Origin: Chrysochromulina parva
Lineage: Eukaryota > Haptophyta > Prymnesiales > Chrysochromulinaceae
NCBI GenBank assembly: GCA_002887195.1
Contig: PJAB01000003.1
Location: 17,833-81,832 of the forward strand
Direction of reading: 5' to 3'
DNA length: 64,000 bases
The position numbers and the translations under genes are program-made. The notes beneath the pieces were generated by a model, which did no database searches, was not told the DNA's origin, and saw only the letters and a list, made by a program, of their open reading frames with translations. This document shows, in pieces, positions 4,709-59,174 of this stretch (position 1 is the stretch's first letter; each line of letters begins with the position of its first letter).

Positions 4709-7700
4709 TCAGCTCGGCTTCGTGTACGTGGCGAGCATCCGGCGGTTGCTCGTGAGGGTCACCGAATTGGCCGACGCCCACTCGATCCTCAGCGCGGCGG
4801 CGTCGTCGGCGGTGTCGGCGTGAGCGAACTCATCGACGGTCGTCGTGTGTAGGCACGAGCCATGCAGCCCAATGAAGCCAAAGAAGCCTTGCGAGCCCGC
4901 GAGCCACCAGCGAAGCGTGCGCTCCTCGATCGAGACGGAGGCGACGAGGTCGCCAGCGGCCGAGAAGGCGAGGCACGTGACGGCATGCTCGTGCCCCTGC
5001 AGGATGCGCCACTTGGTCGCGGTGCGCATGTCATAAAGGATGACGACGCCCTCGATCGTCCCGACTGCGAGCCGCTGCGTGCCCTGATGAAAGGCCATCA
5101 TCGGGTAGCGCTTGACGAGCTCGCGCAGCGCGGTAGTGCTTGCGACGAGGCACCCCTCGCGCAAGGAGGGCACCGACGGGTCGAGCGGGCGGAGGACGGC
5201 CGCGACCACCGTCGGCAGCTCGGCCTCGAGAGAGACACCGCGCGCCTTGACGAGCGAGATGAGCGCGTTCACCGCCGACCGCCGCACATGGGCTGGGTGG
5301 CTCATGAAGGCCGCATGTTCACCCATGGCGCGGCAAAAGGCGCGCGGCTCCGAGGAGCCCACCGCAAGCAACGCCGCTTGAAACCGGTTGGGCGCGGCAG
5401 GCGAGGCGAGCGGCGGCGCGGCGTCCTTGGCGGTCGCGGCGGGCGGGCTCGGCGGCAGATTGGAGGTGGCGGCCGAGAGGAGGAAGAGCGTGCGGATGAG
5501 CGTCGGCGGGTCGGCGACGTGCGCCTTCCAAATAGGGTAGCCCTTGCCAAGCAGCTCGGCAGCGGCGGTGCGGTGGAGCTCGGACGGGTGATCAAGCAGC
5601 GCGGTGAGCTGGTTGACCACGATCGTCGAGAGCTCCGCGTCGAGTGGCGTGAAGAAGCGCGAAGCGAGCACCGCGAGCACGAGGACCGAAACGCCCTGTG
5701 GCGAGCTGAGGTCCTCGGCCACGACACGCACTTCCTTAGACCCGGCGGCGGCGGCGGTGCTCGCGCGACGCGCCGGCTCCGCGAGCCGCAGCACGCGCGG
5801 CGCCCACGCTGCCACAAGCTGCTGCCGCACCTCGGGCTTCATCCGGTGCAGGGTGCCCTCCATGAGCGCGCGAGCTGCTTGCTGCACCTCCTCGACAGGG
5901 TCGACGTAGTGGCTCGCGAGCAGCGAGAGCGAGGGCGCGCAAAAGAGTGGCAGTTTCTCGGGCAGCACCACCGAAAAGTGCGTCACGAGCGAGGAGCATG
6001 CGTTTCGTACGTCGTCGTACCCCGGGCACATCATGAGCGTGTTTGCGAGCGTGACCGCCGCGATCGAGTGCAGCGCCGTCAGGTGCGATGAGCACTGCCA
6101 CCGATGGTGGCGGGTATACGCGCATGGCGTGAGGAAGGAGAAGTTGCCCCCGTGGCCCCGCACACCGAAGGTCACCTGGGGCACGGGCGGCCGCAGCCCG
6201 ATGACGTCGCTGCACTCGGCGTCGAAGGCCGGGTCCACGCCCCAGCAGGTCATGTAGGACAGGGCCGACTGGCACGCGACTACGTCCGAGGGGCGCGGGC
6301 CCCGGCTCTTCACAGCCTCCAAGGTCGCACGTTTGCCATGGTCGCTCTCCGCGAGCAGCTTCGACAATGGCTGAACCGTCGCCGAGGGCGCAGCGCTATC
6401 GACCTCGCCAGGCTTGCTGCTGGAGGCATCGGCGCTACTCGGCACTAGGCCCTCGTCCTTGGAGATCGACTCGAGCAGTGGCTCGAGGTTTTCGGGCAGC
6501 GTGAAGGGGGTGGCCTCGGCGGTGGCGACCGCGCCGTGGTGAGCACCCGCGCCGGCGGCCGCAGCAGCGCCCTCCTTCTGTTCTTGAGCGGCCAGCCCTC
6601 GGGGCTGCGTGCTGCGTGCCTCACGGCGCACCTCGAGCTCCTTCGCGTCCTCCCCGTCGAGGGCTGTGAAGATCTCGCTTGTGAACATCTCGCGGCTCTG
6701 GCGGCGCGGCGCGCGAGGTGAGGGCCCCAGCTGATAGGAGCGCTCACGCTCAATCGCCGAGCGCTTGGCCTCGAGCGCGAGTCGCTTGACATTGAAGAGA
6801 AGGGCATGCAGCGGCGCGTTCGTGCCGCCGAGGCCGATGCGCACATTCTCAAGCACGCGGTTGGAGGAGGTGGAGCGCAGCTCACGCGAGATTGCGAGCT
6901 CCGGCACGCTCTGCGAGAGAGGCGCGAGGGCCATCGCTTCGAGGTGAGGCCGAGCTTCGGGCCCGCGTAGCACCCGAGCCAGCCGCCCCGCCTGCAGCTG
7001 CCAGATGTACACAGTCGAACCCATCGCCACGTCCGCTCCTGTCCCACAGAGTCCATCGCCGCTGCCGCACCACCCAAGGGCGCACCGAACGCTGAGCATC
7101 CCTTCGGCGGGTCGCCACTGCAGCTCCCGAATCGGCTCCAGGTGGCCGTTGAGCAAGCCGACGCAGCGCACACGATCGGCGTCAGCATGCCGCCAGCCCG
7201 CGTCGCTGCCGCGCAGCGCAGCAGGCACCAGCGGCACCAACGGCATCTCGGAGACGTCGTAAATGGAGATGGCGCCGTCAGTGCCCACGGCGAGCACCCA
7301 CCTCTCCATGTGCAGGGGCACCCCTGGCGGCGGCTGCAGCAGCGTGGTGATGGGGCCCGAGTGCTCCTTGAAGCGGCGGAGCGGCTGCAACCGGTGCAGC
7401 GACCAAATGACGACCTCACCGAGCGAAGAGGCCGATGCGAAGAAGAGACATGCTGTCGGGATGCCGGACTGTGGATTGCCGGACGCTTCTCCAGACTCCA
7501 CGGCGGCATCCCCATCGCCTCTGCTCTCATTGACGTCGGCGATGCCGTCGGTGAGGGGCGCCGTGGCGGGCGCCGTGGCAGGGGCGAAGGCGCTCCTCGC
7601 GGCCGACGAGGCGCCGAGCTTGAGTGGAAGGATGGCACTCACCCGCGACGGGTGCGCCGCTCGTCGGCCCTCGGGTACGCCACCGCCAGGCAGTCGCAAC

Positions 7701-9490
7701 CGGCCAATCGAGCCATCCGTGTAGCCGAGCAGCAGCTGCACCGGCACCCCATCCTGAGCCACCAGAGCCGAGGCGCTCACCGAGGGCTCGCCCGGAGGCA
7801 CCGGCGCCCAGCCGCGCGTCAAGGGCGCGTAGCCGAGGCGGGTGAGCGGCGCCGCCGAGGCCACCACCGCTGACGCCGCCCTGGGCGAGAGCAGATCGGC
7901 CACGTAGATGTGCATCGTGCCGGCACTGTCAGCGATGGCGATGGCATGGGCGAGGGGCGATGCCTTCGGCGCTATCGAGGCCAGCCAAGGAGCAAGCACT
8001 GCCGCCGCGCAGCGCAGGAGAGCGTTGCTGTTGCTGTTCCCCTCGGCTGCCTCCTCTGCTGCCTCCTCGACTGCGGCGAGCTTCGCCTTCTCGGCGGCGG
8101 CCGCCGCCTCTTGGGCCGCCTCGATGACAGCGCGCGGCACGATCACGTGCTCGGCACCCACTGGGGCATCGGCCGGCTCCTCCAGAAAGGCTGGCACCGC
8201 GAAGAGGGTGGGCGGGACCAAAGCGGACCAGGCGACGACGGCCCAACTATCCGTGCTGCCTGCGCCGCCTGCACCTGCGCCGCCGCCGCCGCCATGCACG
8301 AGCCTAGCGCCAGCCCAACCTTCTTCGGCACGTGAGATCGACGCAGGCAGCACAAGGATCACCCGCGGCGGCGGGACAGACGGCCGCTCCCATAAGGCCG
8401 CGGGCATCGCATAGAGCCAGAGCGTTCCATGGGGGTCGAGGAGGAGGACGAGAGAGCCGTCCGCACTCAGCTGCACGAACCGCTGCGCGCTCAGCGGCAG
8501 TGGAGGGTCGGGCACACTCATTACTCCCTCGACACGCGCGCCGTTCTCGCCGCCCTCCTCCTCAACCATGTCGCTCTCGGCAGCCGTTCGGTACGTGAGG
8601 GTCTGGCGCTGTTTGAACTCTTCGTCAAACGGATTCGCCTCGGCTGCCTTCTTGGCCAGCAGCGCCTTGGTCGAGGCCGCCTTCGCCGCCTCCGTCTCGC
8701 GTCGGCGCCGCTCCAGGACGCTGCGTAAATAGGCCAGCTGCTGCGCCTCCTCGTCGACCGCATGCTGCATCGGCTTCGCTTTCAGCAGCTCGGCACGAGG
8801 CGGCAGCAGCGTGCAGCGCGTCGGCGGCGCGGCGACCCCGACGTTGCCGTTGGGGTGCACGAGCAGCTGCCAGCTGCGCACGCCACCAGAGGCGTCGAGG
8901 CACACGAGGCGCGCGTGCTGCTCTGCGCCGCCTGGTGTCGCGGCGACCGCCATGCACCAGTCGTCCAACGGTGAGAGCACGCAGCGTACGGTCATCGTGG
9001 ATAGCTGTACTATGCTCAGCGCCTGGCTCTCGCCGCCGATGACCGCATGCTTGAGCCCGGGCAGCATGGCCCCAACGGTCGCACTGGGCAGCAACGACGT
9101 GGGCGAGGACGAGAGGCACCTTCCGTCCATGGGGTCCCACACATTGAGCAGCCCGCCATGGCAGAGTGAGCAGAGCGCGTCCAAGCGCTCAAAGAGGCAC
9201 GAAGCGACCCACATGACCGGCGCAGAGTGCCCAAGGAGCATGACACGAGGCGAGAGGCGCAGGGATGCCGCGGCGGCATGCTCTTCGTCGTCATCGTCTC
9301 CCGGCCCGTCTTCAACACCCCAGAGGCAGACCTGGCCTGTGCTCGAGCCACTGACCAGGGCCGCACGCGGCAGCGACGTCACGCAGATGCAAGTGACGTC
9401 GTGGCGCGGCGGTGCGGGCCAAGCGGCGATCGGCACGAGCAGTGACAGCTGTGGCTCCGCAGCGGCAGGCGGCTTGGGCTCGCGTCTCAT
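4709..9490 (-). CDS. WDR7: WDR7/rabconnectin-3 beta-like WD40 protein
   Basis: A 1,593-residue single-exon protein. N-terminal WD40 repeats begin at residue about 28 (HDVTCICVTSLPRAALVSGS) and more follow. A central block near residue 780 has the WDR7 pattern of GHLEPIRELQW followed by VYIWQLQAGRLARVLRGPEA. A long helical, HEAT-like region occupies about 1150-1420. The last 110 residues are another pair of blades ending in strands of the WDR7 type (LQGHEHAVTCLAFSAAGDLV). In animals WDR7 pairs with DMXL1/2 to assemble and activate the V-ATPase and so acidify vesicles. Length matches human WDR7 (about 1,490). Low-complexity Ala/Glu/Gly linkers between blades account for the excess. It is transcribed away from the selenoprotein O gene, from a 242-base shared upstream region. 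Confidence 0.8.
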   Translation of the reverse strand: MRREPKPPAAAEPQLSLLVPIAAWPAPPRHDVTCICVTSLPRAALVSGSSTGQVCLWGVEDGPGDDDDEEHAAAASLRLSPRVMLLGHSAPVMWVASCLFERLDALCSLCHGGLLNVWDPMDGRCLSSSPTSLLPSATVGAMLPGLKHAVIGGESQALSIVQLSTMTVRCVLSPLDDWCMAVAATPGGAEQHARLVCLDASGGVRSWQLLVHPNGNVGVAAPPTRCTLLPPRAELLKAKPMQHAVDEEAQQLAYLRSVLERRRRETEAAKAASTKALLAKKAAEANPFDEEFKQRQTLTYRTAAESDMVEEEGGENGARVEGVMSVPDPPLPLSAQRFVQLSADGSLVLLLDPHGTLWLYAMPAALWERPSVPPPRVILVLPASISRAEEGWAGARLVHGGGGGAGAGGAGSTDSWAVVAWSALVPPTLFAVPAFLEEPADAPVGAEHVIVPRAVIEAAQEAAAAAEKAKLAAVEEAAEEAAEGNSNSNALLRCAAAVLAPWLASIAPKASPLAHAIAIADSAGTMHIYVADLLSPRAASAVVASAAPLTRLGYAPLTRGWAPVPPGEPSVSASALVAQDGVPVQLLLGYTDGSIGRLRLPGGGVPEGRRAAHPSRVSAILPLKLGASSAARSAFAPATAPATAPLTDGIADVNESRGDGDAAVESGEASGNPQSGIPTACLFFASASSLGEVVIWSLHRLQPLRRFKEHSGPITTLLQPPPGVPLHMERWVLAVGTDGAISIYDVSEMPLVPLVPAALRGSDAGWRHADADRVRCVGLLNGHLEPIRELQWRPAEGMLSVRCALGWCGSGDGLCGTGADVAMGSTVYIWQLQAGRLARVLRGPEARPHLEAMALAPLSQSVPELAISRELRSTSSNRVLENVRIGLGGTNAPLHALLFNVKRLALEAKRSAIERERSYQLGPSPRAPRRQSREMFTSEIFTALDGEDAKELEVRREARSTQPRGLAAQEQKEGAAAAAGAGAHHGAVATAEATPFTLPENLEPLLESISKDEGLVPSSADASSSKPGEVDSAAPSATVQPLSKLLAESDHGKRATLEAVKSRGPRPSDVVACQSALSYMTCWGVDPAFDAECSDVIGLRPPVPQVTFGVRGHGGNFSFLTPCAYTRHHRWQCSSHLTALHSIAAVTLANTLMMCPGYDDVRNACSSLVTHFSVVLPEKLPLFCAPSLSLLASHYVDPVEEVQQAARALMEGTLHRMKPEVRQQLVAAWAPRVLRLAEPARRASTAAAAGSKEVRVVAEDLSSPQGVSVLVLAVLASRFFTPLDAELSTIVVNQLTALLDHPSELHRTAAAELLGKGYPIWKAHVADPPTLIRTLFLLSAATSNLPPSPPAATAKDAAPPLASPAAPNRFQAALLAVGSSEPRAFCRAMGEHAAFMSHPAHVRRSAVNALISLVKARGVSLEAELPTVVAAVLRPLDPSVPSLREGCLVASTTALRELVKRYPMMAFHQGTQRLAVGTIEGVVILYDMRTATKWRILQGHEHAVTCLAFSAAGDLVASVSIEERTLRWWLAGSQGFFGFIGLHGSCLHTTTVDEFAHADTADDAAALRIEWASANSVTLTSNRRMLATYTKPS

Positions 9491-9732
9491 AGTCGTCCGA
9501 TGCCGATGCCTTGCTCGGTCCCGACATTGCTGCGGAATTCAGGTGTGAACGCAAATAGAACATCTCCCGTTGCAGTGTGAAGTGAGACGCGTCGGCAGAA
9601 GGCCGGCGGGGCACATCGGGGCACATTTCCTTCGTGGAATAACTTTTCTTTAGGACCCGCTCGCGGGAACGCCATGTGGTTGTGAGGAGTCGCTTTTCGC
9701 ACTGGGCTCCGGCCCGAGGAGACGGGAGTGTT
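9491..9732. promoter_or_regulatory. Shared divergent upstream region (WDR7-like / selenoprotein O)
   Basis: 242 bases separate the two divergent start codons, so both promoters must fit here. No canonical TATA box is seen. An ATG at 9674 lies upstream of the selenoprotein O start and is out of frame with it. The region is called regulatory from position only. Confidence 0.5.
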
Positions 9733-11778
9733 ATGCCCTACTGGGCCGAGCGTTATTTGGCCAAGCGTCTCCTCATCCTTCTCATAGTGCAGCTCTCCGT
9801 TACCTTCGACCTCGGCAGTCTCGGCGAACGCATTGATAACGAGTACATCCGCTCTCTCGAGGCTGATCCAGAGCAGGCGGCGCATGCGCCGAACCACTCG
9901 CCGCGCGAGGTCAGCAGCGGCCACTTCGTGCTCGTGCGACCAACGCCACTCAACAAGCCGAGGCTGGTGACTTACAGTCCAGAGGTGTGCACCACACTGC
10001 TCGGGCTAGATGAGAGTGAGTGCCGCTCCAAGCTCTTTGTGAAGCTCTTCTCGGGCGGAGACGTCGAGGACGAGATTCCTGGCTTCAATCAGCAGTGGGC
10101 CACGCCATATGCACTGTCAATCTACGGCCAAGAGATTAAGCCTGACGGCGCCGGCCCGCGCGGCTACGGATATGGTGATGGCCGCGCGATCTCCATTGGC
10201 GAGGTGCGTATCGAGGGCGTGGGCACCGACGATGAGGAGGAGTGCCCGGCGTGGGCTCATGCTGGCGAGTGCGCCAAAAATTCCGAATCTATGCTCGCCT
10301 CCTGCCGGAAGAGCTGCAATGTCAGCACCGGCAGCACGCCTTGGGAGTTGCAGCTCAAGGGCAGCGGGAAGACGCCCTTTTGCCGCGGCTCGGACGGCCG
10401 TGCAGTGCTTCGATCGAGCCTGCGCGAATTCGTGGCGTCGGAGACCATGGCCGCGCTAGGTGTGCCGACGACCCGAGCGCTCTCGCTCGTCGTATCGGCG
10501 GACGAGCGCGTGCAGCGGGCCTGGTACACGAACAAATCTGCGGCGATCGCCATCGGGGCGATCAAGCGGGACAAGCACGGCGGTGACGTGGTGCGCGCGG
10601 AGCGGGTGGCCATCACCACCCGCGTCGCGCGGTCCTTTCTACGCGTCGGCCAGTTTGAGCTCTACGGACGGCGCGCGAGCCGACGCGAACCAGATGGGCT
10701 GAGGCAGCTCGAGCAGCTCGCTCGACACGCCCTTCGGCGCGAGTACCCTGAAGTCTTGGGACCAGCGACGTGTACCCGCGCGGCGGGCACGCCGCTGCAA
10801 GTGCTGCTGCTGGAAATGGCCCGTAAGGCGAGCGCCCGGTTCGCACGCCTGTCGGCGGACTGGATCCGCGTGGGATACACGCAGAGCAAGTGAGTGCTAA
10901 TGACCTCTGATGACCTCTGAAGACCTCTGATGACCTCTGATGGCCTTTGATGGCCTCTGATGACCTCTCCTCTCCCATGGCCCCACAGCTTCAACGCTGA
11001 CAACTGCTTGGTGGGCGGCGTCACCCTCGACTATGGCCCGTTTGGCTTCATCGAGCGCTATGATCCAGCATGGGGCATGTGGGTAGGCTCTGGCGACCAC
11101 TTCTCCTTCATGAACCAGCCGAGAGCGGCAGGCAGGAACCTTCAAATGTTCCTACGGAGCCTCGAGCCGCTCGTCGACGCGGAGGGCATTGCCGAGCTTC
11201 GGTATATCGTCCAGCGTAGTTACGAGGCCGACATGGAGAGGGCGCTGGGCGAGATGTGGGCCAGCAAGCTCGGCCTGCCGCCCCATGCCCGTGCGCGTGC
11301 CACGCGGCTGTGGCGCGCCCTCGCTGTGCTGATGCAAGAGACGACGACGGATTGGACGATCTTTTGGCGTCAGCTCGCTCAGGTGGCTGACGCCGCGGCC
11401 GAAGGCGTCCGCGACGAGGCGACTCACCTCACGCTGCTGGCGCCCGCCTTTTACACGCCGCCCGCCGACCAAGATTCCGCGAGCCGTTGGATGGATTGGC
11501 TGCGCGACTGGTGGAGTGAGCTCGACGTCGAGGATGGCCGGAAGGGCGCGGGCGCGCGCATGCGCCTCGCCAACCCCAAGTTTGTGCCGCGTGAGTGGAT
11601 GCTCGTCGAGGCGTACACCGCCGCTGAGAAGGACGACTACGGGCCGTTGCGGACGCTCCTCGCGCTGCTGGGCGCCCCCTACGAGGAGCATCCGGAGCTG
11701 AGCGAGCGCTTCTACCATCGAGCGCCGGTAGGCGTCGAGTGGCAGGGCGGCATCGGTTTCATGAGCTGATCCTCGTAA
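9733..11778 (+). CDS. SELENOO: Selenoprotein O (SelO/YdiU pseudokinase AMPylase) with UGA-selenocysteine and inserted ShK-like domain
   Basis: Exons 9733-10889 and 10989-11778, intron 10890-10988 (GTGAGT...CCACAG), phase 2. Splicing restores the conserved active-site block: Asn-Ala-Asp-Asn (residues 388-391) then DYGPFGF (Asp400), with the ten-residue Asp-to-Asp spacing of the family, plus the ATP-site Lys in WELQLKG (about 207). The frame meets TGA at 11767-11769 and continues Ser-Ser-TAA. The family tail is S-(C/U)-S-S, so the TGA is read as selenocysteine (residue 646 of 648); the 3' UTR holds a SECIS. Residues 171-195 insert an ShKT-like Cys module (C..WA..GEC..N...ML..C..SC). A hydrophobic N-terminus (RLLILLIVQL) suggests a signal peptide or anchor. 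SelO AMPylates redox proteins, usually in mitochondria; the secretory-type features make this copy unusual. The CxxU cysteine is absent (Phe instead). Confidence 0.88.
10901..10970 (+). repeat. 10-bp minisatellite inside the selenoprotein O intron
   Basis: Seven head-to-tail copies of a 10-mer, consensus TGACCTCTGA, fill 70 of the 99 intron bases. Copies differ by one to three bases (AGACCTCTGA, TGGCCTTTGA, TGGCCTCTGA, and a last copy ending CTCC). The splice donor lies 11 bases before the array and the acceptor 18 bases after it. Because 10 is not a multiple of three, the array could not be coding. Confidence 0.9.
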
Positions 11779-11830
11779 GGTGCGAACTCCACTCACGGAG
11801 CGCGCATCCCGAGAGCCCCACAAGCCGGTG

Positions 11831-11926
11831 GGAGCGAGACGACATGACGCGACGCCCGGAAATACCGACGACACTTTGACGAGTTATATGTCACCGTCGA
11901 CCGGGCGATTGCTGAGACGCCGCTCC
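11831..11926 (+). promoter_or_regulatory. SECIS element (type 2) in the selenoprotein O 3' UTR
   Basis: Read by hand as RNA. Helix 1: 11831-11836 pairs with 11921-11926 (GGAGCG/CGCTCC). Core quartet: ATGAC at 11844-11848 opposite TGAG at 11913-11916, giving the tandem G.A pairs. Helix 2: 11 pairs, 11849-11859 with 11901-11912, with one bulged A (11908) and one G-U. Directly after helix 2 on the 5' side come the conserved unpaired adenines, AAA at 11860-11862. Helix 3: 11866-11870 with 11895-11899, which can extend with 11871-11873/11889-11891, making this a type 2 SECIS. It starts 62 nt after the UGA codon, a workable distance. SECIS elements recruit SBP2 and eEFSec to recode UGA as selenocysteine. 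Confidence 0.82.
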
Positions 11927-12378
11927 GGCCTGCGCAGCTAACAACCGGCCGCCCACACGGTCGACCCACACACGGTCGACCAACATTTCTCCCACACGGG
12001 TAGGCCTCTCCGCCAAGGGTAACCGACTGGGTGAACCAAGCGACTCCGACACCAATCTATTGAGCTCTATTTTCAGGAAAGAGAGGGGCGCTGTGAAGGC
12101 CTGGCTGTGTTTGGCAAATCCTTTGACTATGTTTTCTTGAATTTGCATGCAACGACGTGTTGTTTGAGCTGCTATTTTTGCAATCTATTTTCAGCTCACC
12201 CGTTCTCGAACTCCACACGACCAAGTCCAACGGTGCTCGACGCGGCAGACATGGCGCACGCCTTTCCTTTGCCCAACCCGCCATCCGCATGCACCGCCGA
12301 GTATCCGAGCTCTCTTACTCACACGCCGCTGCCCCCTGTTCGGCTTGCACAGGCTATCCTTTCCACTCCTTCCAAGAC
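11927..12378. other. Rest of 3' UTR and upstream region of the SLOG/SLATT gene
   Basis: About 450 bases with no supported gene. A 12-base direct repeat (CACACGGTCGAC) occurs near 11955 and 11971, followed by a CACACGGG remnant. A second in-frame ATG for the next gene lies at 12289, so part of this stretch could be coding if that start is used. Confidence 0.5.
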
Positions 12379-15300
12379 ATGTCAGGAGAGGACTCGCGCC
12401 GAGTCTCGATGGTAAAAGAGGATGCGAAGGCTGCTCCCGAGGCTGCTCCCTTGGCTGCGCAGGTGGAGTATGGCGAGAATAGCGCGCCAATGAGCGAGAA
12501 CGCCAAGCGCTTCGCGCCTATCAAGGCCCGGCTGCTCTCCGAGCTGCGCGCCAACCCGCTCGACTTTGAGAACCCGCCGACCGAGGCTGCAAAAGAGAAG
12601 CCCCATCCATTTCGCTGGGTGCCGGAGCACGACCCGGCGCGTCCCGACGATGAAAATATCAAGGGCCAGAACAGCGTCTGGATGTTGAACCAGATCCAGA
12701 AGTGGGAGTTGGAGCTGCCAGCGATGAGTATCGTCGTCCAAGGTGGACAAAACCACCCGATGATGCTCATCCAGCAGTCTGGGTTGCGAGAACAGCGCGC
12801 GGACTTCCTCAAGTCGCGTCCACGCATCAACGACACGTATTTTGATGGCAACCGCGACCCTGTCGAGGGGTGGATGGCCGCAGTCAAGGCGTGGCGATTG
12901 CCGGCCTTTTACGTGGGCGCCAACTACCAGATGCCGGAATTCACCTTCAAACCATCTCACACTCTTTTCATCGACGCGTCTTTGCAGGCACAGGACGACG
13001 CCGATCTCATCGGCCGGGAGGACCGAGTGAACAACGAGTGGATAATGGACGCGGTCACGCACCAGCCGCTCTGCAAGCAGTCAGCCGTCAAGGGGCGTGA
13101 CGGCATCTTCTTCTGGAATCTGAATGTGGTGGCCGCTGTCACGCCTCTCGGCGTCATGCCCCCGCAGACGCAGTTTGTAGGAAATCTGCGCGAGAACTAC
13201 GATGTATGGTTTGGCGGCATGAAGTCTCAGTCGGCCGTGCTCATCGAGAACAACCCGATGATGTCGTCGCTCCTCGCCGGCGGCTCGCGCTTCCTCGTCG
13301 GCGTGACTCGCCCCAAGAACATCAAGCGCTGGGGGAGGATGGGTAAGCAGATTCTCGATCTAGAGGAGCGCAAGAAGCACGCTCTTTCCTCTGCAGTGCT
13401 TTCCAAGGGTGAGGTGCGCCTCGAGATTGTTAACGCGCGCCTCAACAAGCTCGGCCTCGCGCGTCTTGCCGCGTTCATGCCGTCCGCGAGTCAAGGCGAC
13501 GCCCTCGTCCTGCTCAAGTCCTTCATCCCGGGTGACAATCCACCCGAGCACACCTCGGAGGTATTCCCAATGAAGGCTGGCTTCGTCAAGTTCAAGGGGC
13601 GCTCGGCCCAGTCGATCGACCGGCGCTTTATCACCGATGGGCGCCCGTTCGAGCGCGCCGAGCTCAACGATATCCTCGAGGACCAAGACCCACAACGCTC
13701 TCAAGTGAGAGTCAAGCTCTGCCTCGCTGCCAAGAATGGGAGCGAGATGCGCGGCGAGGGCGGTCAGCTAAGGGGCTTACTCGGCGAGTTCAAGGTGTCG
13801 CTCAAGGAACTGGTGCGCGATGGCACCGCGGACAGCCACGGCTCGTTCTCTGTACAGGGCGAGGTCGAACTGATGGGAGCCGAGAAGGAGCCTGAGCCCG
13901 AGCCTGTGCCGCGCAAGCTCGTCAAGCCGAGTCGAGAGAACACTCGACAGTCGATGGTATCGAATCCTCGCGGCAGCCGGCGTATGAGCTTTGGCTACCC
14001 CAGCCCCCGCGTGATGCCTTCGTTCAAAACGCAACTGTCTGCGAGGATCGACGATGCGAAAGAAGAGGCGAGTTCTGAGGAGGAGGTGGAGGAGGCGGAG
14101 GAGATGGACGTGGACGAGCCGCAGGTTGCTCTCGGTACGCTGATGTTTCGCGTCGCGATCAATCCGCCCGAGCCGCCACCCAAAGCACCCCCCTCAAGCG
14201 TTGCTCGAGTCCGAACCACAAATGGGGTTTCTAAGGAAGCAGCGACGCCGAGCAACGTAGTTAAAGGCGCGTCCTCACCTGACATGGACGAGATGGATGA
14301 CGAGGATAAGGGCGACGACTTATCGGGCATGATGGCCGGGTCCTTGCGGGAGCTGCGGATTTTGGTGCCGGGTGAGGGCATGGTGCCTGTGGTACACGGA
14401 GACTTCTTATCGAAGGCGCCAGCGACGAGCACGCCAGGCACCGACGCGGCAAGAGCACCGATACCGGCGGACTCCTACTTGCCTCGCAACACCGCGTGGA
14501 TGTCGCCCGGTTTGTACGACGGGTCCACGCAGCGACCGATGATTCCGCCACCGAGGATGCCGCCGCCGATGATGATGCAGCCGCCGATGATGATGCAGCC
14601 GCCGCCGATGATGCAGCCGTCGCCGATGATGCAGCCGCCGATGATGATGCAGCCGCCGCCGATGATGCAGCCGTCGCCGATGATGCAGCCGCCGCCGATG
14701 ATGCAGCCGTCGCCGATGACGCAGCTGCCGCCGATGATGCAGTCCATGATGCCACCGGCGATTATTCCACCGCCAGTGGGTACAGGAGGGATGACACTGC
14801 CGCTGTCGGCTGCACCCTCGCCCATGCTCCAGCCGCCTCCGTACGAAGTCGCCGGAGACTGGGCACGTTCGGAGGCGGCGAGGTCTCCCGTCGAGTTTGC
14901 GCGGTTGTCGCCGCGCCCCCAGAGCCTGCGCGCGCCTGCTGCTCTGTTGCCTGACAGGCTCGGTGCTGGCGCGATCTCGCCGCAGTACAAGGAGCCGCCG
15001 CCACTACCGCCTGACTTAGCAAGCACGGCTCGTTCCACACAGCTGATCGACCGACTTGCTATGTCCGACTCGGGAGGGCCTGCCTCAAGCAGCGGACCCG
15101 CCAGCCCGCCGCCCAGCCCGCCCGAGGACGCCAGAGTACAGCTCGAGCCCGCCGACGCGGGCGACGAGCCCAAGCCGCCGCCCCAAAGCAGCAGTCCGCC
15201 GTCGCCGTCGCAGTCGCCGTCCAACCGGCCCTCGCATGCACCCTCAGTTGCGCCCTCGGAGGCCGACCCTGACACGGAACATCAGCAGCTCGCGGAGCAG

Positions 15301-18300
15301 CAGCTCGAGAAGCCCAAGGGCAAGAAGCAGCGCAGCCGCAAGGAGAGCAGGGATGGTGATCTACCCCTCACCTCGAAACAGAAGAAGTTGGTGGCCGCTA
15401 AACTCGGGTTCTTTTCGGAAGCGCTTCACAGATTGCCGAGGACAATGAAAGACACCTTGCGGTACACCTTCGCTTACTGGATCAAATGGCACCACGTCGA
15501 GACGATCGCCGATCAGCTGCTCTTATTTGGTGACTTGCGCAACATGCCCGCGCTCATACGAAACCACCGCCTTGGCGCGATCGTCGACGGCGAGTTCCGC
15601 GCCACGGAATTCGACCCACGCGAAGCCGGCGACAGGTGGTGCTTGCTCGTCGTCACGAACGACGGGAGCTTCTCCAACTATAGCATCGGCTACTCGTCTC
15701 GCGACCTGACAGGGGCACCCAGTACGGCGCGCAACGCGGATCCCGAGAGCGGCGAGGTGGTGACAAACGTGCGCACCGAGTTCGCAAGCACCGTCCAGAT
15801 CCGCCGGCTGGTCACGACGACCCGAGGCGCGGGCCTCATTGCGCAAGCGTGGATCTGGCCACGAGATCTCGAGGAGGAGGAGATCATGGAGCTGTGGGTG
15901 GCCACCAAAGACCGCTACCTCGACAAGGAGCCCGTCCCCACCGACGAGATGATCCCTAAACAGCCCGCGCCGAACCGCGGCAGAGACCCTCCGCTGCCCT
16001 GGGACTCTCCCGACCCGATCATTGATAAGGACAATGCTGCGATGCTCGACATCCCGCTCGTGTCGAAGATCCTCTTCCAGCGGCTGAAGAACGTCTTCAC
16101 TGTCCTAGTCGACTATGCTAACTATTCGGACTCATTCCTGGTCATCGACCGCATCCACAACCCGTCGGCGACGGCCGAGCTACTCCTCGAGGTCGCGCTA
16201 CGTGCCAACGGCTCCAACTCAACCGTGCTCGTGATGGACGCGCGTGCGCGCCTCGAAACTGCCAACGTGATGTTGCAGCAGCTCATCGACTGCGGCTTTC
16301 TCGTCGATCAGGAGGAGAAGTACAAGCCGCGGCCGCGCGGGCTTGACAAGGTACAGGTGGAGGAGCAGCGCCTCACCGAGTTCAAGCTCACCTCGACCGA
16401 CTACGCCTCCCCCAGGTGCGACCTGCGCCGGCTCGTGACGCCTGCGGGGCTCGCATGGCTGCGTGCGTCCCAGGCCGAGCTCGCAGGGACCATCGAGCTC
16501 ATTAACAGCCACAGCCGACACCTGGACATGTGCAGGCTGGTGACGAATATCTTCTCAGACTTTCAGTGCTCGGATGACCTGCGGCCCGATGGCCGACCGC
16601 GGCTCGACCGCATTTGGAAGGTCTTCTACAACGCGCAGCTCTTTGCGAGCGGGACGCACTACATCGTCTTTGACGACGTTGAGGTGAAGGGTAAGCGTGT
16701 GATCGACACCCTTGGCACCCTCGGTACAATCTACCTCAATGGTAGCACGGAAGTGCACAAGAAGATTATCGACTGCGTGCAGGCCGGCTCGCCGATACTC
16801 CTGCTCGAGTCGACGGGCGGCGTGACGCAGGCCTTCAGCCACGCGGTCAAAGCGGTCAAGATGATGAAGTCCAAATGGCCCCTCGACTTTGTGTTGCGGC
16901 TCGTCACCGAGTACAAGCAGCGCGTGGCCACGAACCAGCGCAAGGACAAGCTGCCAACCTCAGCGCGCCCTTACGCGCTCGACAACGTCCACCTGCTCGA
17001 CAAGGAGCTTGTGCGTATGGACCTGATCCTCTCGTCCGGCGAGTACCAGGAGCCGTGGATGCGCAACTTCGGGCTGCCCGAGGTGATGCTGCTCTTCGAG
17101 ACGTGGCAACGCTCGCCCGACTTTCTGCTCAAGTCAATCGTCTCCGCGGACGTGATGCGCTTTTCTGCAGAGGCGCTGCTTGACCTGTTCACTGCGTGCT
17201 TCTCGGGTGGCGCGGGTGGCATACCGGAGCTCGGCCTGGGCAATGCGGAAACCAAGGTGGTGGCTACTGCGTGGAACCGCCACCTCATTCTCTTCAACAA
17301 TTCGTGCATGTACTGCAAGCGATCTTGGACGATGCAGTTCGTGCTCTACTTTTTATCGCAATTCACCGTGCTGCTCTCGATCATCACGTCCAGTTACGCC
17401 TCGCTGCAGTCCAACGAGTTTCTTAGCTTCTTGATGCAAGGGCTCCCCATCACGGTGGCGCTGCTTGGCACCATCTCGACCCGTCTGCGGCAGCCCCAAA
17501 AGTACTCTGTGTCCCGTATGGCAAGCATGGAAATCGTCTCCGAGATCTACAAGTACCGCACGCGCTCGTTGGAGTATGATGGCCTCGCACTCGCGGCGGC
17601 CCTCAAGGCTGCGCAAGAGGGACCTGCCGACGCGAAGAAGAAAAAGGGCGAGGAGGGGCTCGCCATGCCCATCCCCGCCAAGGAGAAGAACAAGCTGGCT
17701 CGCAAAGTTTTCGTGGAACGCGTTCAGGCGATCTACTCGCACAGCTTGACCTCAGAGATGAGCAAGGGCACCTCAGCCTCGCACAAGACAAATGGAATGG
17801 ATCCGTCACAGCTCGTCGTCGATGCGGACGAGGAGGGGCAGGGGAGCATCATGAACCAGCTGCAGCAGCACGTGTGCAACAAGCTCTACTTCATCACTGT
17901 GCGCGAGTGGGCGCTTACTGCCGAGGAAGTGAAGAGGAAGGCGTACGCTGTTGAAGAAAGGAGAGGAAGCCGTTTGAGAGATGCCAGACGCAAAGCTTCC
18001 AATAAGCTCTCCCTGCTTACCGCCGTAGTGATCACTGTGCTCATTGCCGCCGTCCGGTTCGTGTTTGCTATTGGGCGCGGTGCTGCACTGCTATGCTCGC
18101 CGAGCCGCATGAACAAGTTCGTTAAGCAGCAACGCGCTACCAACGGGAATTCGGCTGCGGAGGCGCGGGAATCGAGCGAGACGCGCACAAGCCTCGAGAT
18201 GCGGCTCATCCGTGATCTCAAGGCCCGTGGGGATCGGCTCCGAGGTATCGTCACCGAAGTATCTTCAGCAATGACGGGATTGCCGGTGAAAGAGGAGGAG

Positions 18301-18924
18301 ATGCCCGAGCAGGTAGCGGGCGGGCGCACCGAGCGGCTCGACACCTCGTTCATCGAAGCCGAAGAGGGGGGCAGCGGCGGCGGCGGCGGCGGCGGTGGCG
18401 GCCGAGCCTCCGATGATGGCGGCGGCGAACGGCTTCCCAAGATTCGCGATGATCTGATGACCGCTATGTCAATCGACGACTACATGATGTACAGAGCGCG
18501 TCCGATTTGCACCTACATGATGCGCACGGCACCCTGGCGCGCCTTTGAGCTGCAATGCCTCGAAATCTTCACGTTCATCTTTCAGTCGTCGGGCGCCGTC
18601 CTGGTTAGCATCGGTCCCATCTACGTGCCCTACGTGGCGCTGACTATCGGAGTTGCGAGCGTAGCCAAGTCGTTCATCGAGTTTTCGCGCCTCAACCAGC
18701 AGGTGGAGGCTTACAATTCCGCACAGCGCAACATACATAACATGATCAACGCGTGGGATGGCATGACGCGTACCCAGCGGCGCACACGCAAGACCATCAC
18801 ACAGGTTGTCCAGACCGTCGAGACAGCTCTACTTACTGTCACCACCGGTATGACCGATTCGACTCCTGGACAGGCCTTTGCAATGGGAAGCGAAGAAGAG
18901 GGCGAGGCCGAGGGCGCGGCTTAA
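12379..18924 (+). CDS. Giant SLOG (TRPM-type) / SLATT-like multi-pass membrane protein
   Basis: A 2,181-residue single-exon protein. Near residue 107 an ELPAMSIVVQGG strand resembles the start of the TRPM N-terminal SLOG (LSDAT) domain. Residues about 1180-1640 contain what looks like its second half: YIVFDDVEVKGKRVID, then a loop, then SPILLLESTGGVTQAFS, the nucleotide-loop glycine signature. Two membrane helices follow (about 1654-1704), then RMASMEIVSEIYKYRTRSLEY, the Arg/Tyr-rich helix of SLATT (DUF4231) domains. One more membrane segment (about 1877-1905) and a second SLATT-like 2-TM unit (about 2064-2130) end the protein. Between are a C2-like beta region (about 350-500) and a Met/Pro repeat (about 720-800). 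SLOG domains bind NAD- or nucleotide-derived ligands; SLATT units are membrane effectors. No channel pore was seen. Start: first ATG giving a Ser/Glu-rich N-terminus; 12289 is the alternative. Confidence 0.6.
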   Translation: MSGEDSRRVSMVKEDAKAAPEAAPLAAQVEYGENSAPMSENAKRFAPIKARLLSELRANPLDFENPPTEAAKEKPHPFRWVPEHDPARPDDENIKGQNSVWMLNQIQKWELELPAMSIVVQGGQNHPMMLIQQSGLREQRADFLKSRPRINDTYFDGNRDPVEGWMAAVKAWRLPAFYVGANYQMPEFTFKPSHTLFIDASLQAQDDADLIGREDRVNNEWIMDAVTHQPLCKQSAVKGRDGIFFWNLNVVAAVTPLGVMPPQTQFVGNLRENYDVWFGGMKSQSAVLIENNPMMSSLLAGGSRFLVGVTRPKNIKRWGRMGKQILDLEERKKHALSSAVLSKGEVRLEIVNARLNKLGLARLAAFMPSASQGDALVLLKSFIPGDNPPEHTSEVFPMKAGFVKFKGRSAQSIDRRFITDGRPFERAELNDILEDQDPQRSQVRVKLCLAAKNGSEMRGEGGQLRGLLGEFKVSLKELVRDGTADSHGSFSVQGEVELMGAEKEPEPEPVPRKLVKPSRENTRQSMVSNPRGSRRMSFGYPSPRVMPSFKTQLSARIDDAKEEASSEEEVEEAEEMDVDEPQVALGTLMFRVAINPPEPPPKAPPSSVARVRTTNGVSKEAATPSNVVKGASSPDMDEMDDEDKGDDLSGMMAGSLRELRILVPGEGMVPVVHGDFLSKAPATSTPGTDAARAPIPADSYLPRNTAWMSPGLYDGSTQRPMIPPPRMPPPMMMQPPMMMQPPPMMQPSPMMQPPMMMQPPPMMQPSPMMQPPPMMQPSPMTQLPPMMQSMMPPAIIPPPVGTGGMTLPLSAAPSPMLQPPPYEVAGDWARSEAARSPVEFARLSPRPQSLRAPAALLPDRLGAGAISPQYKEPPPLPPDLASTARSTQLIDRLAMSDSGGPASSSGPASPPPSPPEDARVQLEPADAGDEPKPPPQSSSPPSPSQSPSNRPSHAPSVAPSEADPDTEHQQLAEQQLEKPKGKKQRSRKESRDGDLPLTSKQKKLVAAKLGFFSEALHRLPRTMKDTLRYTFAYWIKWHHVETIADQLLLFGDLRNMPALIRNHRLGAIVDGEFRATEFDPREAGDRWCLLVVTNDGSFSNYSIGYSSRDLTGAPSTARNADPESGEVVTNVRTEFASTVQIRRLVTTTRGAGLIAQAWIWPRDLEEEEIMELWVATKDRYLDKEPVPTDEMIPKQPAPNRGRDPPLPWDSPDPIIDKDNAAMLDIPLVSKILFQRLKNVFTVLVDYANYSDSFLVIDRIHNPSATAELLLEVALRANGSNSTVLVMDARARLETANVMLQQLIDCGFLVDQEEKYKPRPRGLDKVQVEEQRLTEFKLTSTDYASPRCDLRRLVTPAGLAWLRASQAELAGTIELINSHSRHLDMCRLVTNIFSDFQCSDDLRPDGRPRLDRIWKVFYNAQLFASGTHYIVFDDVEVKGKRVIDTLGTLGTIYLNGSTEVHKKIIDCVQAGSPILLLESTGGVTQAFSHAVKAVKMMKSKWPLDFVLRLVTEYKQRVATNQRKDKLPTSARPYALDNVHLLDKELVRMDLILSSGEYQEPWMRNFGLPEVMLLFETWQRSPDFLLKSIVSADVMRFSAEALLDLFTACFSGGAGGIPELGLGNAETKVVATAWNRHLILFNNSCMYCKRSWTMQFVLYFLSQFTVLLSIITSSYASLQSNEFLSFLMQGLPITVALLGTISTRLRQPQKYSVSRMASMEIVSEIYKYRTRSLEYDGLALAAALKAAQEGPADAKKKKGEEGLAMPIPAKEKNKLARKVFVERVQAIYSHSLTSEMSKGTSASHKTNGMDPSQLVVDADEEGQGSIMNQLQQHVCNKLYFITVREWALTAEEVKRKAYAVEERRGSRLRDARRKASNKLSLLTAVVITVLIAAVRFVFAIGRGAALLCSPSRMNKFVKQQRATNGNSAAEARESSETRTSLEMRLIRDLKARGDRLRGIVTEVSSAMTGLPVKEEEMPEQVAGGRTERLDTSFIEAEEGGSGGGGGGGGGRASDDGGGERLPKIRDDLMTAMSIDDYMMYRARPICTYMMRTAPWRAFELQCLEIFTFIFQSSGAVLVSIGPIYVPYVALTIGVASVAKSFIEFSRLNQQVEAYNSAQRNIHNMINAWDGMTRTQRRTRKTITQVVQTVETALLTVTTGMTDSTPGQAFAMGSEEEGEAEGAA
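14541..14765 (+). repeat. Coding minisatellite, Met/Pro/Gln repeat
   Basis: Within the SLOG/SLATT gene, an array of near-identical units built on CCGATGATGCAGCCG encodes PPMMQ, PSPMMQ and PPMMMQ repeats about a dozen times. It is in frame throughout and sits in a disordered linker between the C2-like region and the second SLOG-like part. Such arrays change length easily by slippage. Confidence 0.85.
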
Positions 18925-57773: not shown

Positions 57774-59174
57774 ATGGCAGGCACCTTCGGCGGCGGGGCA
57801 ACTCCGAGCCTCTTCGGAGGCGCGGCGACACCTTCTGGGGCCAACGCGTTTGCCCCCGACGTGAAGGGTACGAGCCTCTTCGGAGGTACGCCGGCGCCTA
57901 CCACCGGCCTCTTCGGAGGCGCGCCTGCTGCTGCTGGCGGCGGCCTCTTCGGAGGTGCGCCGGCTACTGCTGGTGGCGGCCTCTTCGGAGGCGCACCTGC
58001 GCCAGCCGCCGGCCTCTTCGGAGGCGCACCGGCTGCTGCTGGCGGCGGCCTCTTCGGAGGTGCGCCGGCTGCTGCTGGTGGCGGCCTCTTCGGAGGTGCG
58101 CCGGCTGCGGCTGGTGGCGGCCTCTTCGGAGGCGCACCGGCTGCTGCTGGCGGCGGCCTCTTCGGAGGCGCACCGGCTGCTGCTGGCGGTGGCCTCTTCG
58201 GAGGTGCGCCGGCTGCTGCTGGCGGCGGCCTCTTCGGAGGCGCACAAGCTGGCGGCGGCCTCTTCGGAGGCGCGCCTGCTGCTGCTCCCGGCGCGTTCGG
58301 CGCTTCAACTGGGAACCTCTTCGGCGCGGCGCCTGCAGCTGCGCCCATGCCGAGCGAGGGCTCGATGGATGGCCACATTTTTTGGCAGTGGCAGAAACAG
58401 ATGGAAAACGCCTGGAATTCCAAGGACAAGCAGAACTGTTCTTTCAAGTATATCTTCTTCGACTCGTGCGAAGATGCCGGCCCAGACAGCACGATGAAGG
58501 TGGATCCCCAAAAGCTGCACGAAAGGCGGAAAAAGGCCCGAGAGATGTCCGACAACGCGATGTGGGAGCGGGCAGACGCCCAAAACCGCGACCCTTCGCG
58601 GCTCGTCCCCGTGCAGGTCACGGGCTTCGAAGAGCTGCACGAGCGGCGCAGAAATCAGCTAAAGATGGCGAATGACATTGCGGAGTTCAACAAAAAGGCG
58701 CTCGCAATCATTCAGACCGTCAAGGATGAGCGCAGCTTGCAAATCGATCTCCGTTTCCGACACTACGTGGAGCGCCAGCAGATGCTGGCCCACCGCGTCC
58801 TGAAGCTCCATGCGGCCATCGAGCGCCAGCATATCAATCGCAACGAGCGCTACCGTCACGATGGTGGCTTAGAACCGCCGATCGAGATCAAGGAGGAAAA
58901 CGACATACGCCGGCTGTATGCACTTGAGCACGAGCTCAGGAGGCCCATCTCGCGCCTGCACGAGCTGAGCTCGCGTCTGGAGCAGGAGGCCGGCCGCGAC
59001 AGCCAGCTCGATGGCCTTCCGCCGGTCTCCCGCTTACATCTTGACAGCCTGCAGGAATGGCTCACGCGCCAGCAGGAGGCCGTGCGAGTCCTCATCGAGG
59101 TGAGTCTGCAGGATCTCAAAGATCTTGACGTCGTGCGCGAAATCGTGTGCGAGATGACTGGCCGTAACCCGTAA
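57774..59174 (+). CDS. NUP54: Nucleoporin Nup54 with GLFG-repeat N-terminus
   Basis: 466 residues from the ATG at 57774. Residues 1-190 are FG repeats of mixed LFGG and GLFGG type, mostly in a 12-residue unit (GGGLFGGAPAAA). Residues about 200-466 carry the Nup54 region: NRDPSRLVPVQVTGFEELHE at about 270, then helices for the Nup62-Nup58-Nup54 coiled-coil trimer of the central channel. The FG repeats form the permeability barrier of the nuclear pore. Human Nup54 is 507 residues. An upstream in-frame ATG at 57709 would add 21 residues without matching features. Confidence 0.86.
   Translation: MAGTFGGGATPSLFGGAATPSGANAFAPDVKGTSLFGGTPAPTTGLFGGAPAAAGGGLFGGAPATAGGGLFGGAPAPAAGLFGGAPAAAGGGLFGGAPAAAGGGLFGGAPAAAGGGLFGGAPAAAGGGLFGGAPAAAGGGLFGGAPAAAGGGLFGGAQAGGGLFGGAPAAAPGAFGASTGNLFGAAPAAAPMPSEGSMDGHIFWQWQKQMENAWNSKDKQNCSFKYIFFDSCEDAGPDSTMKVDPQKLHERRKKAREMSDNAMWERADAQNRDPSRLVPVQVTGFEELHERRRNQLKMANDIAEFNKKALAIIQTVKDERSLQIDLRFRHYVERQQMLAHRVLKLHAAIERQHINRNERYRHDGGLEPPIEIKEENDIRRLYALEHELRRPISRLHELSSRLEQEAGRDSQLDGLPPVSRLHLDSLQEWLTRQQEAVRVLIEVSLQDLKDLDVVREIVCEMTGRNP
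57895..58290 (+). repeat. 36-bp coding minisatellite encoding GLFGG repeats
   Basis: About ten tandem units with the core CCTCTTCGGAGG encode GGGLFGGAPAAA. Several units differ only at third codon positions, suggesting recent unequal exchange with selection on the amino acids. Two units are shortened, one ending QAGGG. Confidence 0.85.

Follow-up and report, generated by a model that had tools for sequence, protein, structure and literature searches.

The window analysed here, the whole stretch of 64,000 nucleotides of one Chrysochromulina parva contig, carries a gene for selenoprotein O (SelO) whose in-frame UGA (11767–11769) is almost certainly decoded as selenocysteine (Sec) in the cell, judging from the sequence. 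This is supported by the Cys that relatives have at this position, by a SECIS element, by a second SelO that ends in FMS-UGA-SS, by the presence of tRNA-Sec and SepSecS, and by in-frame UGA codons in GPx and Rdx genes. The reading that we favour as a whole, a haptophyte Sec-containing SelO that is secretory, bears a lumenal ShK domain and carries out AMPylation, is fairly probable. The features concerned are the following.

9733–11778, plus strand: SelO gene, two exons, from ATG 9733 to TAA 11778
9733–10889, plus strand: exon 1, codons 1–385 and part of codon 386
9733–9807, plus strand: signal-like N-terminus MPYWAERYLAKRLLILLIVQLSVTF (own hydropathy heuristic; helix 3–19 in the P0001 model)
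10228–10320, plus strand: ShK-like insert, residues 166–196 (Pfam PF01549, 23.0 bits, cut-off 20.9)
10890–10988, plus strand: intron, GT–AG, 99 nt, mostly a 10-nt tandem repeat
10989–11778, plus strand: exon 2, with NADN, DYGPFGF and the C-terminal tail
11767–11769, plus strand: in-frame UGA, predicted Sec codon, residue 646 of 648, Cys in relatives
11776–11778, plus strand: TAA stop, after Ser-Ser
11831–11926, plus strand: predicted type II SECIS element including its lower helix (RNAfold, own scanner, shuffles)

The assignment to the SelO family is based on the PF02696 profile (206.2 bits, cut-off 22.8, E 1.1e-60) and on the active-site motifs, which are all present (GDGRA at 148, WELQLKG at 204, SNFNADN at 385 and LDYGPFGF at 399, also aligned to 6eac). 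The start Met at 9733 is the same as in P0001, which is 98% identical; a GTG at 9676, upstream of this ATG, also lies in the open frame. The intron contains 6.9 copies of ATGACCTCTG, according to a tandem-repeat scan of the window, and its removal restores QSNFNADNC, a stretch that is conserved among homologues. The gene lies near two long open frames, one of 2255 residues (12157–18924, plus strand) and one of 1593 residues (4709–9490, minus strand) which looks by eye like a WD-repeat protein. Elsewhere in the window (57905–58293), a 36-nt repeat occurs 11 times, and its unit, translated by eye, reads GLFGGAPAAAGG, like the GLFG repeats of nucleoporins.

The intron of the window SelO is without the exon copy found in the introns of the second SelO gene, on contig C520. 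A family of introner-like introns occurs genome-wide (for example at 1381–1458, 2309–2403 and 2667–2734 of locus L001, and at L023–L034); each opens by repeating the beginning of the exon that follows it, and continues with a CTGATTGCC-type satellite and finally CCTCATTGCATGCAG. If up to 3 mismatches are allowed, the pattern of their 3′ end is found 144 + 126 times in the genome, while the reversed control gives 0. The copied exon stretch is at least 17 nt long in 10 of the 12 exact-pattern loci that were fetched (17–60 nt, up to 3 mismatches), whereas the introners described earlier have target site duplications of 3–9 bp, according to passages of PMC9860276.

Positions 11758–11778 read TTC ATG AGC TGA TCC TCG TAA in the SelO frame, in the context ...GIGFMS-TGA, exactly as the preliminary description of this DNA had it (Phe-Met-Ser-TGA-Ser-Ser-TAA). 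The UGA stands where homologues hold Cys, as in eukaryotic selenoproteins, and UGA-TCC-TCG-TAA gives the ending of SelO, in which Ser-Ser comes after a Cys or Sec at the C-terminus. The family tail S-(Cys/Sec)-S-S claimed in that description is indeed common: Cys-Ser-Ser was found in 78 of 85 related loci (80 bacterial ones, the best 80 of at least 577 relatives, and 5 from viral contigs), while three have Phe-Cys-Gly near the end and in four the match stops short of the tail.

Among the 120 homologues listed, which are protein predictions only, 102 stop right before the Sec position, 7 end in CSS and 11 end otherwise. Most of these homologues end as would be expected if gene finders stop at the UGA, as far as predicted proteins alone can tell, and it is likely that the SelO tail is widely misannotated. 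The same 102 endings would also be expected if the UGA were a plain stop, followed by Ser-Ser-TAA and a hairpin by chance, a reading against which the Cys-Ser-Ser of relatives argues. It may also be that the UGA is read both ways according to selenium supply, one fraction of the product ending at Ser645 and another having Sec-Ser-Ser: in other selenoproteins, Sec insertion and termination at UGA compete, and the short form would keep the whole fold, since the UGA lies three codons from the end. Such dual reading is improbable, considering that relatives retain the Ser-Ser after the Sec/Cys site.

As in other eukaryotic selenoproteins, a SECIS element is found in the 3′ UTR, by our scanner and by shuffles, Rfam being silent. 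All the parts of the type 2 element that had been described for this site (ATGA/TGAG quartet, 11-pair helix, AAA, further helix, lower six-pair helix) could be located. The quartet strands are ATGA 11844–11847 and TGAG 11913–11916; between them lie an 11-pair helix with one bulged A, the unpaired AAA (11860–11862) and a two-step upper helix, and the lower six-pair helix, read from the sequence, pairs GGAGCG 11831–11836 with CGCTCC 11921–11926. The distance from TAA to the start of ATGA is 65 nt and not 62 nt as first given. The folding check suggested at the outset, RNAfold on 11779–11945, gives −62.8 kcal/mol, below all 200 shuffles (0/200 as low, z −2.91).

When both strands of the window were searched with our own scanner, it returned 8 candidates, and only that of SelO passed strict settings (ATGA, at least 10 pairs, E ≤ −18); under these settings 4 of 194,773 dinucleotide shuffles of 11779–11945 equalled it. 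When the scan was loosened and run over 350 nt, 6 of 1500 shuffles matched or beat it. On the contrary, an Rfam search gave no SECIS match at this locus, either at the gathering threshold or at E up to 10, which counts in favour of a plain stop. The SECIS consensus has A or U after GA, and the window element has G (TGAG); this G is usual in this genome, since 8 of 9 SECIS-like elements end in GAG.

The remainder of the genome (45.07 Mb in 2199 contigs were searched) supports the idea, already put forward in the preliminary description, that this organism uses Sec. It contains a tRNA-Sec (70.7 bits, cut-off 47, anticodon TCA), a SepSecS match (1.9e-124) and a PSTK candidate (50 bits, vs a cut-off of 382). 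One in-frame TGA is present in 8 of 11 GPx matches, in the context N-V/A-A-S/C-x-UGA-G in the seven frames that we read, and in all four Rdx matches, at the last place of CxxC/U. On C520, the second SelO has the tail FMS-TGA-SS-TAA and a SECIS-like element 106 nt further on.

SECIS-like elements occur within 350 nt of the stop in 9 of the 10 UGA genes scanned (2 SelO, 4 GPx and 4 Rdx, of 14 UGA genes seen), vs 5 of 364 control tiles of the window, a counted figure, with the SelO SECIS lying across the boundary of two tiles. The looser scanner used for this comparison was set after the 3′ ends of three GPx genes had been viewed by eye, and it gave no match at the tenth locus, L037. Between 1 and 24 of 1500 shuffles matched or beat the nine elements, the more modest ones (L013, C520 and L036) being equalled by 13 to 24. 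Three GPx loci whose gene end is unsettled (L007, L008 and L012) were left out, together with C1929; scanned separately, L012 has a SECIS-like match, and L007 and L008 have none in the stretch scanned.

The search for the machinery that had been proposed as a check was successful for tRNA-Sec, but eEFSec was not recognised in the genome among the matches to the TIGR00475 and PF21208 profiles (8 of the 21 TIGR00475 matches had loci). The C548 candidate is EF-Tu, the other TIGR00475 frames fetched read by eye as IF-2, GTPBP-like, LepA, TypA and eIF2-gamma, and the PF21208 match on C150 (25 bits, cut-off 27) was rejected too, its long frames being unlike eEFSec. SelD had no match in the genome either. 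Little weight should be given to these absences, because the genome may be incomplete and the genes intron-split.

SepSecS is 98% identical to one metagenome protein and up to 82% to others, 74% to Prymnesium parvum, 70% to Prymnesium sp. and 66% to Emiliania huxleyi, vs about 47–55% for animals among the matches listed. This kinship marks the organism as a haptophyte, and most likely as a prymnesiophyte. The protein (locus L006, on C2159) is prolonged at its C-terminus by a long stretch that matches NUDIX weakly (14.6 bits, cut-off 21.1), so that it is possibly a SepSecS–NUDIX fusion; some of its relatives are about as long, and PF00293 is found in P0125. We also note that GPx is expanded in this genome (L007–L014 and C1929, with 8 matches that have an in-frame TGA), and that L007 begins with a sequence resembling a plastid signal, including the ASGF motif of such signals.

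Considering the shuffles (4 of 194,773), the C520 paralogue with its identical tail and SECIS-like element, the Cys-tailed relatives and the other UGA genes of this genome, we reject the proposal that the UGA is a plain stop: this is highly improbable.

Where the protein resides is a separate question; neither its signal-like N-terminus nor its ShK insert figures in the preliminary description. The N-terminus of the window SelO reaches a hydropathy of 2.83 over 10 residues by our own heuristic. A quick tree, made from 122 rows and with SH-aLRT support only, puts the window SelO in a clade of 39 rows (99) that includes Prymnesium, one Polarella protein, Guillardia and Hanusia. According to our own patterns, from which the hydropathy and tail classes are derived, a strongly hydrophobic N-terminus is seen in 23 of these 39 rows vs 11 of 82 other rows; the 16 clade rows that fail the test include some with incomplete N-termini, most of a subgroup to which P0011, P0012, P0014 and P0035 belong, and P0030. 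The median sequon density is 3.36 per 1000 residues in the clade vs 1.68 outside. The window SelO is probably located in the secretory pathway.

An alternative is that the UGA encodes Sec but that the protein works in the mitochondrion, the plastid or the cytosol, the hydrophobic start being another targeting signal, such as a bipartite haptophyte plastid signal. Plastid signals, too, begin with a hydrophobic stretch. A mitochondrial SelO has been described for eukaryotes (passages of PMC12663964 and PMC8097203). On the contrary, the conserved part of SelO begins directly after the hydrophobic stretch (compare P0005, P0007 and P0009), which leaves no space for a transit peptide, the ShK domain and the denser sequons fit a lumenal protein, and it is the other SelO, that of C520, which has a mitochondrion-like N-terminus, arginine-rich and without acidic residues in the first 40 or so positions. 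We consider this alternative unlikely. The placement of the C520 SelO in the tree is unsure, owing to a long branch. From the two N-termini, this alga would have one mitochondrial and one secretory Sec-SelO.

ShK domains have six cysteines in three disulfides. The insert of the window SelO has four (171, 180, 191 and 195), while the corresponding stretches of P0030 and P0031 have six; two of the three disulfides could remain because, by the usual ShK pairing, the missing cysteines are partners. We call it ShK-like, in a four-Cys form. It does not reach the threshold of E 1e-3 used in the genome-wide ShK search, which returned 102 matches, of which many form arrays, and gave no match in 14 control genomes of prokaryotes. 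The insert is present too in P0001, a metagenome cluster of separate origin with 125 members, and an assembly artefact is rejected on this ground. Six rows of the tree bear ShK (the window, P0001, P0025, P0030, P0031 and P0084), all of them within the 39-row clade; the domain is absent from the other 82 rows and from the C520 SelO, and a profile search for further ShK-bearing SelO gave none new among the best 120. The insertions are at five different places in the SelO fold, the window and P0001 being counted once.

In the mechanism that we propose, tRNA-Sec would decode the UGA, directed by the type II SECIS of the 3′ UTR, to give a product of 648 residues ending in Phe-Met-Ser-Sec-Ser-Ser, which its N-terminus would direct into the secretory pathway. 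ShK would sit in the N-lobe of the pseudokinase, inserted in a loop that joins two strands, and would fold in the oxidising lumen, where SelO may AMPylate proteins of the lumen or of the cell exterior, its Sec tail acting as a redox switch. AMP transfer by this protein and the roles of Sec and ShK are inferred from sequence. Extending this to the clade, we put forward more tentatively that a mostly Sec-type SelO lineage of haptophytes, dinoflagellates and cryptophytes entered the secretory pathway and gained ShK five separate times at five surface sites, and would be a selenium-dependent family of lumenal or extracellular AMPylases with exchangeable targeting modules. If the mechanism proposed for the window SelO is right, AMPylation by SelO would extend beyond mitochondria and bacteria, and the secretory pathway of marine algae would contain an AMPylase that is not of the Fic family and depends on the supply of selenium.

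Compared with SelO/YdiU (PF02696), the pseudokinase AMPylase, the window protein adds a signal-like N-terminus and the ShK insert. SelO has a redox switch, Cys272–Cys476 (passages of PMC8097203), and a switch of this type would need a Cys in the activation segment, which the window SelO, unlike the SelO with that switch, is without. Such a Cys is present in 4 of 122 rows of the algal set; in the bacterial and viral-contig SelO (L045–L124 and L040–L044), it is present in 64 of the 76 classified, mostly right after DYGPFGF. We rejected the idea that Sec is linked to the loss of this Cys: seven Cys-tailed rows of the algal set lack it too, so that its absence follows the clade rather than Sec. 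Two other cysteines are common and may be considered as partners of the Sec: Cys217 is present in 29 of 39 clade rows and 77 of 82 others, Cys392 in 34 of 38 and 81 of 82; but the C520 SelO keeps Sec without either.

That few SelO have Sec, and that a secretory location is a prediction only, for some eukaryotes, is stated in passages of PMC3281104. Sec-SelO is already in print for Ostreococcus and a red alga (passages of PMC2375036). In these algal proteins and in those of stramenopiles, as in the window, Sec is near the C-terminus, and the SECIS of the O. tauri SelO is also of type II (passages of PMC2375036 and PMC3281104); ShK, on the contrary, has 0 occurrences in the passages of PMC3281104. 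The Emiliania huxleyi set of 96 selenoproteins includes a ShKT–SELENOM fusion, likewise a ShK-type domain on a haptophyte selenoprotein, but of the SELENOM family and not SelO; the passages of PMC7539508 contain no ShK-SelO. Beyond this fusion, we found no report of SelO joined with ShK in a literature search that most subscription journals lay outside, and the search for a secretory SelO turned up only work on FICD. This AMPylase of the ER lumen parallels the proposed place of the window SelO, AMP transfer in the secretory lumen (passages of PMC8097203), but it has the unrelated Fic fold and lies outside the sequence evidence for the window protein. A Sec-containing SelO in an alga is thus already known, while the ShK-bearing, apparently secretory form is new.
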